Below are positions 19,962 to 24,268 of a DNA stretch of 33,371 nucleotides, piece after piece. Where the stretch lies: positions 1,803 through 35,173 of the forward strand of contig MFEF01000011.1 in assembly GCA_001777515.1 (NCBI GenBank), in the 5' to 3' direction. Source of the stretch: Candidatus Doudnabacteria bacterium RIFCSPHIGHO2_01_48_18 (GTDB taxonomy: Bacteria; Patescibacteriota; Doudnabacteria; UBA920; 2-01-FULL-46-14). The notes under the pieces were generated by a model that did not search any database, was not told the origin of the DNA, and was given only the letters and a program-made list of their open reading frames with translations. Within the stretch, counting starts at the first letter, position 1. Every line of letters starts with the position of its first letter. The position numbers and the translations under genes were made by a program.

Positions 19962-19973
19962 AGCCCATTCCCG

Positions 19974-20000
19974 AACACCTCAACGCCGTGTTGAGGTGTT
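19974..20000. repeat. 27-base palindrome at the left edge of the DGR island (also terminator-like)
   Basis: AACACCTCAAC (19974-19984) pairs perfectly with GTTGAGGTGTT (19990-20000) around a 5-base loop. A related 27-base palindrome, identical at 21 of 27 positions, is at 23171-23197, at the other edge of the island. It may terminate the ligase operon, though the T run after it is short, and the -35 box of the next gene begins just 3 bases later. Confidence 0.7.
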
Positions 20001-20457: not shown

Positions 20458-21339
20458 ATGGCTAAATACAGCCATTGGAGAGACGGACAGCACGAAGCCC
20501 TGATTAATATTTTGGGCGAAGATAATGCTTTGGCGCTTTTGCGTGGTGAGAAAGCCGTTAGTTTTCAGGATGTAAAACTTTTACATTTTGACAGTAACGG
20601 CCGGTGCATTCCTCGCAATCTGACGAATAAAGTCTGTGATCCGAATACGGATTTTCATCTCGTTCAGCCCAAGCTTGACTATGGCGTGCGTCTGGCGCGC
20701 ATCGGTGAATGTCTGCATGCCGGCCTCATGATTTCGGCCGCAGAGTTTGAGGATCGCTGTCAGAAACTTCTGGAGCGTCTCGGCAAAGACGAGCTGTGTG
20801 GCAACATCGTCAAAGCAGTTCATCTGCCGATCTGCATCCCGCAGACGCAGGTTACTGACTATGGCGAAGCGCTCAATCCCTTCTTGCTTGGCGTTGACTG
20901 TTCCTATCCGCAAGAGTTTTCAGGGCGGACGTTCAACAATTACCGCGAAGACGATCTGGCTAAGAAGGTAAAGATCGTTCCTGGAATCCGCCACGATGCC
21001 CTTGTGGAAAAACTGGCCGGAGGACATGCGGTCGGAGTTTATTTCCCGAATCCGATGCAGGGATTTTCAGTTCTGGCCCAGCGCGAGCAGATTGAAGTTC
21101 TGCCGCCGTGGTTCTGGCTCTCGGGCGGGTTCGATGCAGTGACGGCGATGGTTGCTTACCCCGATGTTCTTGCCCGTGATTGGAGCACGCCGGGCTTGGA
21201 CTTTTCTGCATTACAGTGGCAGGGCGCTCGGGGCTCGCTGTACTTCAAGGCCAATGACGCGGAGCTGAAGTTCGACCGCGGGGGCAATCTCGGCGGTGCC
21301 GACGACTACTATTCTGGCGGTCTGTTCGTCCTCGGGTAG
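20458..21339 (+). CDS. DGR target protein with C-terminal variable region
   Basis: The 293-residue protein starts at ATG 20458 after a GGAGG ribosome site. No signal peptide or membrane helix is seen. The N-terminal 240 residues are a folded domain that I do not recognise, with features such as D-Y-G-V-R-L-A-R and W-F-W-L-S-G-G-F-D-A. The last 40 codons (residues 254-293) are the variable repeat. They end in G-G-L-F-V-L-G, like known DGR targets, whose C-terminal domains are often C-type-lectin-like. Nine residues differ from the template: G256, G259, Y262, A268, R274, G275, G280, D282 and Y284. Target proteins use this region to bind ligands. Without an export signal, the ligand could be intracellular, or export uses an unrecognised route. 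Confidence 0.85.
   Translation: MAKYSHWRDGQHEALINILGEDNALALLRGEKAVSFQDVKLLHFDSNGRCIPRNLTNKVCDPNTDFHLVQPKLDYGVRLARIGECLHAGLMISAAEFEDRCQKLLERLGKDELCGNIVKAVHLPICIPQTQVTDYGEALNPFLLGVDCSYPQEFSGRTFNNYREDDLAKKVKIVPGIRHDALVEKLAGGHAVGVYFPNPMQGFSVLAQREQIEVLPPWFWLSGGFDAVTAMVAYPDVLARDWSTPGLDFSALQWQGARGSLYFKANDAELKFDRGGNLGGADDYYSGGLFVLG
21217..21335 (+). repeat. DGR variable repeat (VR)
   Basis: These 119 bases align without gaps to 21665-21783. I count 15 differences: 12 at positions where the template has A (7 to G or more, the rest to C or T) and 3 at other bases (21232, 21238, and the third base of codon 268). Most changes fall in AAC, AAT, AAG or GAC template codons. The last 26 bases (21310-21335) match the template exactly, as expected for the initiation-of-mutagenic-homing end. 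Confidence 0.93.
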
Positions 21340-21351
21340 TGCTGGTCTTTG

Positions 21352-21425
21352 GGCTTGGGAATTTTGATTTTGGATCTTGACCTCTTGGTCTTTGATTTCA
21401 AAATCAGACTCCCAAGCCTTTTTGT
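21352..21425 (+). terminator. Long hairpin after VR; terminator and possible DGR hairpin
   Basis: GGCTTGGGA (21352-21360) pairs with TCCCAAGCC (21410-21418), with further pairing of TGATTTT with AAAATCA inside and a small inner GACC/GGTC hairpin. A T-rich run follows, so it is a good intrinsic terminator. In studied DGRs a hairpin just downstream of the VR promotes retrohoming; this hairpin starts 17 bases after the VR and could have both roles. Confidence 0.75.
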
Positions 21426-21437
21426 TTTGCCAATTTT

Positions 21438-21446
21438 TGTTATGAT
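21438..21446 (+). promoter_or_regulatory. Candidate promoter for template RNA and reverse transcriptase
   Basis: TGT-TATGAT (extended -10 form) lies after the hairpin and before the template repeat. It would give an RNA beginning near 21453 and running through the TR towards the reverse transcriptase on the + strand, the direction required by the A-specific changes. No good -35 was found. Confidence 0.4.
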
Positions 21447-21468
21447 AAGCTTGAGATTAGGTTAATGC

Positions 21469-21547
21469 ATTTTGAATTAAGGTTCAAAATCACCGAAATC
21501 CGGAAAATCAAACCATGCCAGAATTGCCTTGATCATGGTTAAGGCAA
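21469..21547 (+). ncRNA. Structured leader of the template-repeat RNA (putative)
   Basis: Three inverted repeats lie between the hairpin and TR: ATTTTGAA/TTCAAAAT (21469-21476 with 21483-21490), AACCATG/CATGGTT (21511-21517 with 21534-21540) and TTGCCTT/AAGGCAA (21524-21530 with 21541-21547). The last two overlap in order, so they are alternatives or a tight pseudoknot. DGR template RNAs are known to need structured flanks for reverse transcription; the role here is inferred. Confidence 0.4.
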
Positions 21548-21664
21548 GCGGTGCATAAGTTTTCTAGACACTACTTATTCTTTTCTTGCGCTCATCAGAG
21601 CCAAATTAAATTCAGGAGAAGCAGTAATGCTTCTTCGGTGTCCGAATGGAAAAGAGTAATATTT

Positions 21665-21783
21665 TGGCAGGACGCTCGGTACTCGTTGAACTTCAAGGCC
21701 AATGACGACGAGCTGAAGTTCGACAACAAGGGCAATCTCGGCAATGCCAACGACAACTATTCTGGCGGTCTGTTCGTCCTCGG
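21665..21783 (+). repeat. DGR template repeat (TR)
   Basis: This is the template copy of the variable repeat. It contains 29 adenines, of which 12 are changed in the VR, against 3 changes at the 90 other positions. AAC codons are enriched at the variable sites, the arrangement that gives most amino acid variety without stops. A frame through it (21551-21793) is open, but it has no gene-like start and is just the template. It lies 7 bases from the end of the convergent avd gene and about 360 bases before the reverse transcriptase. Confidence 0.92.
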
Positions 21784-21789
21784 TTGCGT

Positions 21790-22140
21790 CTAGAACGAAG
21801 TCAGGGAGCGTTGCCATCCTCCAAGCATTCGCCCGATTTCCTGGATATGTGTTTGCAGCAGTAAATATTTCTTGTTATCCAGGATTTTCAGATCATGGGC
21901 GGCGCGGAGGAAAAATTTGAGAGCATCAAACTTTACATTGGCTTTTTTTAGTAATGCAAGTTTCTGCTCTTTTGGCGCGCTCCCTGCCTCGATCAGCAGT
22001 TCTATCGTAGCTATGATATACATTTCGCATTTGTTTCCTAGGGCATATTTATCCTTTTTTGGAAAGAGCTGCAGATACTGGTAATAGATTTTGTAGAGCT
22101 CATTTGTTTTGGCAATTATCGGAATCTCACCATCGTTCAT
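21790..22140 (-). CDS. avd: DGR accessory variability determinant (Avd-like helical bundle)
   Basis: The 116-residue protein has the Avd / four-helix-bundle pattern: I-P-I-I-A-K-T-N-E-L-Y-K-I-Y-Y, F-P-K-K-D-K-Y-A-L-G-N-K, a second and third helix with L-L-I-E-A and K-K-A-N-V-K-F-D-A-L-K-F-F-L-R, and the ending E-I-G-R-M-L-G-G-W. Avd forms a pentameric barrel that binds nucleic acid and the reverse transcriptase and is needed for mutagenic homing. Unusually, it is on the opposite strand to the TR and RT: its ATG is back to back with that of the RT (CATATG at 22138-22143) and its stop lies 7 bases from the TR end. It therefore needs its own promoter within the RT gene. Confidence 0.88.
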   Translation of the reverse strand: MNDGEIPIIAKTNELYKIYYQYLQLFPKKDKYALGNKCEMYIIATIELLIEAGSAPKEQKLALLKKANVKFDALKFFLRAAHDLKILDNKKYLLLQTHIQEIGRMLGGWQRSLTSF

Positions 22141-23191
22141 ATGTTTGAAAATTTAGTCAGTTTAGAAAATTTGTTTGCTTGCTGGCAGGAGTACCGAAAG
22201 GGCAAGAATGGAGAGCCTGATGTTCAGCGATTTGAACGGCATCTGGAAGATAATATTTTTGCGCTTCATGGAGAGCTCCGGGATCAAACCTATCGCCATA
22301 AACCTTACAGCACGTTTCATATTTATGATCCCAAGCATCGAGTGATAAGCAAGGCTACTGTCAGAGATCGGCTGGTGCATCATGCGGTTTTCAATGAGCT
22401 TTACAAACTATTCAACCCCGGGTTTATTTATCATTCGTATTCATCCAGACTGGAAAGAGGCACTCATTTGGCGGTTAATAATCTATCCAAATCCCTGCGC
22501 AAGGTCAGCAGAAATTATACTCGTCCCGTTTTTGCACTGAAGTGCGACATCAAAAAATTCTTTGCAAGTGTTTCTCATGGAAAACTTTTGCAGATTATCG
22601 AAAGCAAAATCCAAGATCGCCGGTTCTTGCAGCTGTTCAGAGAAATAGTTGGGAGTTTTAGTTCAACTGTGGATAACCACGAACAGAGAGAGAGAGAGAG
22701 AGCTTACCGGAATCCCCATCGGCAATCTAACCTCACAAATTTTTGCCAACATATATCTGAACGAATTAGATCAATTTGTAAAACACCGGCTTTGCGCCAA
22801 ACATTATTTTCGATACGCTGATGATTTTGTTATTGTTCACAGCGATAGTGGATATTTAGAAAAAATGAAAATCGAGATCGAGAGCTTTTTGAACAATGAA
22901 TTGGCTCTAGAATTGCATCCTGACAAGGTTGAGATTAGAAAATTTAGCCAAGGGATAGATTTTCTCGGATATGTTGTCTTGCCTTATCATATCGTGTTGA
23001 GAACTAAAACGAAACGGAGAATGTTCAAGAAGCTTTTTGCGAAACAAAAATCCCTTAACGAAGGACTTTTGGAGGCAGACAGTTATCATCAAAGCGTACA
23101 GTCATATTTGGGAATGCTGAAGCACTGCAATGCGCATGATATGGCAGACTCTATAAAGAACAATTTTTTAAACACCTCAACGTGGGCATGA
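22141..23191 (+). CDS. DGR reverse transcriptase, split by a frameshift in an AG repeat
   Basis: The first frame (22141-22821) has the DGR-type RT N-terminus: N-L-F-A-C-W, D-P-K-H-R-V-I, R-D-R-L-V-H-H-A and K-C-D-I-K-K-F-F, with catalytic D136. The second (+1) frame runs from the AG repeat to 23191 and carries G-I-P-I-G-N-L-T-S-Q-I-F-A-N-I-Y-L-N, the catalytic Y-A-D-D-F (22814-22828) and F-L-G-Y. As sequenced, translation stops at 22821 after 226 residues, without Y-A-D-D-F. The break coincides with (AG)9 at 22685-22702. Ten or seven AG units would restore one protein of 350 or 348 residues, a normal DGR RT length. Neither half can work alone. The ATG abuts that of avd, and the last bases overlap the convergent glycosyltransferase gene. 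Confidence 0.9.
22685..22702 (+). repeat. (AG)9 simple repeat inside the reverse transcriptase gene
   Basis: Nine AG dinucleotides lie exactly where the RT reading frame shifts, between RT motifs around the K-C-D-I block and G-I-P-I-G-N. Such tracts are hotspots for slipped-strand changes. The repeat reads R-E-R-E in both frames, so length changes by one unit alter only the frame and a few R/E residues. Confidence 0.92.
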
Positions 23192-23197
23192 GGTGTT
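23171..23197. repeat. 27-base palindrome at the right edge of the DGR island
   Basis: AACACCTCA (23171-23179) pairs with TGAGGTGTT (23189-23197). It shares 21 of 27 bases with the palindrome at 19974-20000. It covers the stop codons of both the reverse transcriptase and the convergent glycosyltransferase. No clear T run follows on either strand, so it is not an obvious terminator. Confidence 0.7.
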
Positions 23198-24268
23198 CGC
23201 AAGCATTTCGTAAACTGCTTCAGTTTCCGCGAGCATTTTGTCCAGGGAAAATTCCTGGACTTTATTTTGCGCTCCTGAGCCAAGCTGCCTAGCCAAATCC
23301 GGATTCGCGATTAGTTTTTTTATGGCCGCGGCCAGAGCGCGGGGATTTTTTGGAGGGACGAGCAGGCCCTGCTTGCCATGTTCCACAGCCTCAGGAATGC
23401 CGCCAACCGCAGTTGAAACAATTGGCAGTCCAGCCGCCATTGCTTCCAGAATGGAGTATGGGAAACCCTCCTTGACTGAAGAACTGACGTAAATGTCAAA
23501 TTCAGAAAGGGATTGCGCGGCATTTGGACCAGATATAATTTTCAATTCCGTCTTGGGAAATTCAGACTGAAGAATGGTGAAAGCCCGACGCAGGGTTTTT
23601 AGATCTTTTGTGGGATAGTCGCGGGCAATAGTACCGATCACTATAGTTTTGTCATCCTGAACTTGATTCAGAATCCATTTTCTGGATTCCGGCTCGGAGG
23701 CCGGAATGACAAGTAAACCATTGTGGATGGTCACAAGTTTTTCTGACGCGCAGAGCTTCCATTTTATGGCCTCCTGTCGGTCAAACTCAGATACGGTGAT
23801 GATCTGCTTGCGAAACCGGGTGGCAAATTTTTCTGCCCAAAAATATATTCGTTTGAATAAATGCGGTTCCAAAAACGCAAAACCGTGAGCCGTGAAAACA
23901 ACATTTCTGTTCCTTGCGAGATGCGCGGCTACGCTGCCGATGACGCCAGCTTTGCTGGAATTGAGATGAATGATGTCGGGAGCAAAGTCTCTGATCAGTT
24001 CTTTGAGTTCAAAAACAGCCAGCAGATCAAATAAAGGCGAGATATTGCGTTTCAAAAAATCAAGCTCCGCGGTTTTTACGCCCAGAGTCGCTAGTGAATT
24101 TTTGAGCGCTGGGTTTTCTCGGCCCACAGCAACCAGGGTTTCGTAACGCGTTTTATCCAAATTTGTCGTCAGGTCAAGGACATAGCGCTGGGCGCCGCCA
24201 AGCTCCCCCTGGGTAATAACATAGAGGATTTTGACTTTCGCGGCCGATTGACTAGAAGAGGTTTTCAT
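23177..24268 (-). CDS. Glycosyltransferase family 4-type enzyme with in-frame repeat insertion
   Basis: The 363-residue product has a GT-B fold: N-terminal G-E-L-G-G-A-Q-R-Y-V-L-D-L, a V-F-T-A-H-G-F-A-F segment, I-T-V-S-E-F-D, and in the C-terminal domain the G-F-P-Y-S-I-L-E-A-M-A-A-G-L-P-I-V-S-T region with the E-x7-E nucleotide-sugar motif. It transfers a sugar from a nucleotide donor to a lipid-linked or polymer acceptor in the cytoplasm. Residues 187-206, in the linker between the two domains, are encoded by a 60-base dispersed palindromic repeat. It is the only sugar gene on the - strand, convergent with the RT and divergent from the dehydrogenase. Confidence 0.88.
   Translation of the reverse strand: MKTSSSQSAAKVKILYVITQGELGGAQRYVLDLTTNLDKTRYETLVAVGRENPALKNSLATLGVKTAELDFLKRNISPLFDLLAVFELKELIRDFAPDIIHLNSSKAGVIGSVAAHLARNRNVVFTAHGFAFLEPHLFKRIYFWAEKFATRFRKQIITVSEFDRQEAIKWKLCASEKLVTIHNGLLVIPASEPESRKWILNQVQDDKTIVIGTIARDYPTKDLKTLRRAFTILQSEFPKTELKIISGPNAAQSLSEFDIYVSSSVKEGFPYSILEAMAAGLPIVSTAVGGIPEAVEHGKQGLLVPPKNPRALAAAIKKLIANPDLARQLGSGAQNKVQEFSLDKMLAETEAVYEMLANTSCPR
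23651..23710 (-). repeat. 60-base protein-coding dispersed repeat inserted in a glycosyltransferase
   Basis: The repeat runs from GTCATTCC (complement of 23703-23710) to GGATGAC (complement of 23651-23657). It has internal inverted symmetry and encodes V-I-P-A-S-E-P-E-S ... L-N-Q-V-Q-D-D in frame. I recognise this as one of the widespread 'VIPA...' style palindromic repeats that are normally intergenic. At exactly 20 codons it does not disturb the frame. Confidence 0.7.

Follow-up and report, generated by a model that had tools for sequence, protein, structure and literature searches.

The window, a stretch of 33,371 nucleotides analysed here, lies on contig C11 of a 919-kb (0.92-Mb), 33-contig patescibacterial genome from a Doudnabacteria relative and carries a real chromosomal diversity-generating retroelement (DGR). 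Its reverse transcriptase (RT) is interrupted at an (AG)9 tract, and comparison with related loci makes it very likely that this RT is a phase-variable (contingency) gene, switched by slipped-strand mispairing at (AG)n. Judging from the related loci, random ON/OFF flipping of such mutation machines is probable in tiny bacteria and archaea.

The DGR of the window and the interruption of its RT

The DGR genes in the window are arranged in the order target gene with variable repeat (VR), template repeat (TR), antisense avd, and RT. The target gene (20458–21339, plus strand) encodes a protein of 293 amino acids without a match in Pfam, PHROG, or NCBIfam. The VR (21217–21335, plus strand) forms its C-terminus, lying within the last 40 codons and ending 4 nt short of the end of the open reading frame (ORF), and the TR follows at 21665–21783 on the same strand. 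The gapless alignment of both repeats described in an earlier, sequence-only reading was confirmed over 119 nt with 15 mismatches. Twelve of these are located at TR adenines (12 of 29 A changed versus 3 of 90 non-A positions; Fisher p = 1.5 × 10−6). The DGR reading, with Avd and a DGR-type RT also present, and the proposed A-specific mutagenesis are supported. The three non-A differences (T>G, T>C, and C>G) slightly exceed the drift of most loci. Given 12 of 15 differences at A, the last homing event in the window may be older; drift since then, as suggested before, is possible, with only three sites to judge it by.

The gene for the accessory variability determinant (avd; 21790–22140, minus strand) is antisense to the other parts, and its start codon adjoins the start of RT. 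The encoded protein matched PF22296 (E = 3 × 10−20) and NF033474 (92.1 bits, cut-off 80). A strong hairpin (21352–21418, plus strand; z = −5.75 against shuffled sequences) is located directly past the VR, the position at which BPP-1-like DGRs have a hairpin required for homing. A short inverted repeat at the 3′ end of RT (23171–23199, plus strand) is a possible terminator, and a similar short hairpin is present at 19972–20000, so that the DGR region is flanked by the two. The inverted repeat was not detected in the terminator scan, promoter and terminator scans gave no more matches than expected by chance, and the Rfam scan yielded only a sub-threshold match to Hrs1.

The RT remains in one frame from 22141 to 22684 (N-terminal part, plus strand), up to the (AG)9 tract at 22685–22702, the proposed phase switch. 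The remainder (22703–23191, plus strand) is encoded in another frame and includes the motifs GIPIGNLTSQ (22709–22738) and YADD (22814–22825). The frame changes exactly at the tract, just upstream of the conserved GxPxGNxTSQ motif; hence, a simple sequence repeat (SSR) with non-triplet units lies within the coding sequence. Both parts matched RVT_1 and phrog_1423, and each scored like the corresponding half of other RTs. Using the family profile, the RT was aligned to the solved Bordetella bRT (8ub7; E = 1 × 10−71), which places the tract in a short, length-variable stretch before GIPIG; an Arg–Glu insert was seen in an in-frame RT. With about 70% identity, the closest relative of the RT was found in a genome of the same family within Doudnabacteria, and L010, the nearest relative of the window, also has (AG)9, both being out of frame.

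In the present consensus, the window locus is OFF because its tract is out of frame. The assumption of a currently silent RT is supported by the broken frame. The description of the DGR as complete holds for the list of parts but not for the RT, and the RT span up to 23191 does contain both halves, albeit in two frames. Since the break sits at an SSR found at the same position of RT in many phyla, the silence is, on this comparison, most likely a reversible OFF state rather than a loss. The antisense avd, the repeat tract at the break, and the DGR loci on contigs C18, C24, and C3 had been overlooked before.

The search of the whole genome for further VRs, advised by the sequence-only reading, gave no additional VR or TR copy of the window element but revealed other VR/TR pairs on C18 and C24. 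The DGR on C18 (L092, 7944–8059, 8703–8818, and 8873–10141) has a 697-amino-acid target, 11 of 12 VR/TR differences at A, and avd. Its RT is intact and encoded on the strand opposite to the TR. This RT might act in trans, and OFF at the window locus need not mean that homing is absent. A (GA)9 tract (L092, 5737–5754) lies about 230 nt upstream of the DGR target ORF on C18, beside a dispersed repeat. The DGR on C24 (L090, 2934–5316) shows 20 of 23 differences at A and an antisense avd; its RT is a C-terminal remnant located directly after a dispersed repeat of about 100 bp that recurs elsewhere in the genome. On C3 (L091, 7359–8383), an orphan avd overlaps an antisense ORF with a VR/TR-like end (asparagine-rich FNWNGKRWKLNFNW...), without an RT.

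Repeat tracts in related RT loci

Relatives of the RT were gathered by a protein scan of genome contigs, of near relatives, and of an even sample of 379 Patescibacteria genomes, which resulted in 191 non-redundant RT loci. Under strict criteria, a long tract was located at a 5′ site in 107 loci, at the internal site in 24 (24–28 overall), at neither site in 60, and at both in none; about 30% of the relatives are without a long tract. Control windows of the same loci contained a tract in 22 of 2653 cases (0.8%). The repeats comprised G8–13, AG, GT, CT, and tetra- and pentanucleotides (units of 1, 2, 4, and 5 nt), and triplet or hexamer tracts were found at neither site among the relatives.

In the related RTs, frame breaks almost always coincide with a repeat tract, which in nearly all cases occupies the site of the window tract; a second break position near RT model (HMM) position ~131 was observed in three loci (L074, L080, and L313). 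Internal tracts consist of AG/GA, CT, or G. Loci with a tract at the internal site or at HMM ~131 and a clear frame call were out of frame in 19 cases and in frame in seven, close to the 2:1 expected of random lengths, with a ratio leaning slightly to "out" because every split RT on the list was fetched, whereas some of the intact ones were left out. L012, which is in frame across the tract but has a stop codon upstream, was counted apart. The frame shift needed at the tracts was of either sign, about equally often. A-biased VR/TR pairs accompanied 23 of the 29 tract-bearing loci with enough flanking sequence. With one genome per species sampled, the best pairs for tract comparison were relatives or paralogues with 72%–90% identity. 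Both frame states occur in nature among related loci, as shown by the 19 and seven loci above and by L095 (in frame) and L096 (out of frame), relatives that differ in tract length and phase. In L011 and L015, the tract was kept through about 25% nucleotide divergence. The window RT belongs to a supported clade of eight members, all of which have the internal tract.

When the flanks were searched for other long tracts, 63 were found outside the RT model span, 61 of them 13–71 nt upstream of it. These 5′ tracts are mostly G8–13, besides GT, GA, CT, penta-, and tetranucleotide repeats. Since avd is encoded antisense to RT and starts head-to-head with it in nearly every related locus, the 5′ tract falls into the first codons of avd. 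It is read through by avd in 99 loci, 30 of which are currently in frame. In 45 loci, the tract also precedes the start of RT, and therefore a single tract sets both avd and RT. Among the 31 scorable loci in which RT also reads through, 30 have the same ON lengths for both genes. As independent proof of co-selection, this agreement is weakened by the fact that 27 of the 31 share one antisense register, and it may result from antisense codon bias. Pentanucleotide (CCTGT-type, 7–9 copies) and tetranucleotide ((ATTG)7) tracts were observed at the 5′ site of L023, L050, L249, and L265.

Among the 379 Patescibacteria genomes, 34 distinct (AG)8+ tracts were listed, 17 of them in RT or avd of DGRs. 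Many of the examined non-DGR tracts are located at the 5′ ends of genes for pilin-like or exported proteins, as predicted for contingency loci. In the DPANN archaea of the Nanobdellota (86 RTs), 13 out-of-frame and three in-frame tracts occupy the same internal site, a ratio biased to "off" because the listed split RTs are in the sample while some intact ones are missing. The tract-bearing loci of this group had no Avd match. A run of 27 G is present at the internal site of one archaeal DGR RT (L384, position 2117), and in-frame G9 and G12 tracts near RT model position 316–317 of L420 and L425 (Nanobdellota) mark a possible third site. No long G, AG, GT, or CT tracts were found at these sites in 59 viral DGR RTs and 14 Bacillota DGR RTs with a readable 5′ site. 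A viral origin of the DGR was rejected, as the viral RT relatives matching over the full length are about 35%–51% identical and have no tracts. On the supported branches of the RT tree, at least five changes are required for the internal tract and at least 18 for the 5′ tract.

Proposed slipped-strand switching and alternative explanations

According to the proposed mechanism, slipped-strand mispairing at (AG)n would shift the reading frame of RT, and about one tract length in three would yield the full-length protein. A daughter cell whose tract slips into frame by gain or loss of repeat units would have active RT and Avd, which would copy TR RNA into the VR, with A-specific errors, and thereby generate a new target variant; a later slip out of frame would freeze this variant. 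We infer that slippage is frequent enough to be useful, that it can be reverted in the source population, and that OFF means no homing. At the level of sequence comparison, the evidence of the survey for such a switch is strong. Points that speak against it are the identical, out-of-frame (AG)9 of the window and L010, the three non-A differences of the VR, the intact RT on C18, the relatives without a long tract, and the antisense codon bias that may underlie the frame agreement of Avd and RT. It appears likely that the DGRs of Patescibacteria and DPANN archaea form a contingency system in which the hypermutator as a whole is toggled by a slippery tract, located either within RT or where avd and RT overlap head-to-head; in part, this tract would be a single bidirectional switch framing Avd and RT together. 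Bouts of hypermutation would then alternate with frozen states, and the trait would have arisen repeatedly in two domains of life.

A dying DGR, in which RT is a pseudogene and the AG tract merely the site of the first frameshift, would be compatible with the truncated RT on C24 of the same genome, the retention of avd and a VR-like ORF without RT on C3, and the three non-A differences between VR and TR of the window. This explanation is nevertheless unlikely. All 14 out-of-frame RTs checked at the internal site were without a lesion apart from the tract, and the codon-position bias is intact in both RT halves: the third codon positions are the most variable ones in the pairs window/L010, L011/L015, and L095/L096, a pattern taken to show purifying selection on both halves of the broken RTs. 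Furthermore, the out-of-frame loci have a median of 0 non-A VR/TR differences and are not distinguishable from tract-free loci in this respect (e.g., 22/22, 23/23, and 17/17 differences at A), and the same site bears tracts in bacteria as well as archaea, about one third of the bacterial ones being in frame. Judged by these features, the RT break does not look like decay. Neutral growth of the repeat in a tolerant loop of the RT, without any role in switching, could be invoked given the position of the tract in a stretch of variable length in the 8ub7 alignment. Such growth would favour in-frame units in a coding loop, yet no units of 3 or 6 nt were seen; viral homologues do not have the tract, and 5′ and internal tracts are mutually exclusive, all of which makes neutrality very unlikely.

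G or A runs can promote slippage, and both halves of the RT are conserved, which would be in line with programmed ribosomal frameshifting or transcriptional slippage providing a low level of full-length RT in all cells. There is little chance that this accounts for the tracts, considering that both shift directions are about equally frequent, the unit type varies (G, AG, CT, GT, penta-, and tetranucleotides), in-frame alleles exist, and the 5′ tracts are located in avd, a different gene. Programmed frameshifting was set aside for the mixed shift direction. An assembly or sequencing error in the tract of a really intact RT would have to be considered because repeat tracts are prone to consensus errors and the RT lies close to a contig end in some cases (L233 and L228). 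However, the tract itself is the oddity and is present in many independent assemblies, its 18 nt are short for Illumina reads, the out-to-in ratio of about 2:1 is not expected of rare errors, and the tracts are absent from viral and Bacillota RTs obtained from similar data; an error is thus highly improbable.

Comparison with known systems and implications

The closest system is represented by the patescibacterial-type DGRs, which largely belong to RT clade 2 of Roux et al., 2021 (PMC8144416). The DGRs described here resemble them in A-specific VR/TR differences, Avd (bAvd, NF033474), DGR-type RT, cellular location, and multiple loci per genome but differ in that RT and/or avd is interrupted by a frame-altering SSR. 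The DGR of Bordetella phage BPP-1 consists of the same parts, and its RT can be aligned as described above, whereas the window avd is antisense and adjoins RT, and the tested viral DGRs have no tract. The SSR contingency loci of Neisseria, Campylobacter, Haemophilus, and Bordetella (e.g., PMC11868660 and PMC1891110) are alike in their mono-, di-, tetra-, and pentanucleotide tracts at 5′ or internal coding positions, with about one third in frame and the gene otherwise intact. In contrast to those loci, the switched gene is here part of a retroelement that mutates another gene, and in many relatives one tract is placed where the antisense genes avd and RT overlap head-to-head. Phasevarions, in which DNA methyltransferases are phase-variable, share the principle of a phase-variable master enzyme altering the behaviour of other genes; the output here would be a permanent sequence change of one target, not a change in expression.

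The element is of a known kind (DGR) under a switch of a known kind (SSR phase variation), and the coupling of both was not found described in the searched literature. The search returned no description of phase variation or SSR frame switching in DGRs, although a mention in the main CPR DGR and survey papers (Paul et al., 2017; Wu et al., 2018) is possible. Likewise, text searches of Roux et al., 2021 (PMC8144416), Yan 2019, a 2024 paper on multicellular bacteria, and others gave no passage on SSR-switched DGRs. If the proposed switch exists, only a random minority of cells would have an active hypermutator while it is off in the majority, in keeping with the need to retain good variants. "Inactive" DGRs may then be off only temporarily, and DGR surveys in which an unbroken RT or Avd frame is demanded may overlook many functional elements. 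It would be a rare case of one mutation-prone device governing another, in bacteria and archaea of lineages thought to be host-dependent.

Apart from the DGRs, several genes of other Patescibacteria that encode pilin-like (FTLIELL) or exported proteins carry long AG/CT tracts at their 5′ ends (L315, L323, L324, L317, L318, and L328); by their sequence, these genes look like further phase-variable surface genes.
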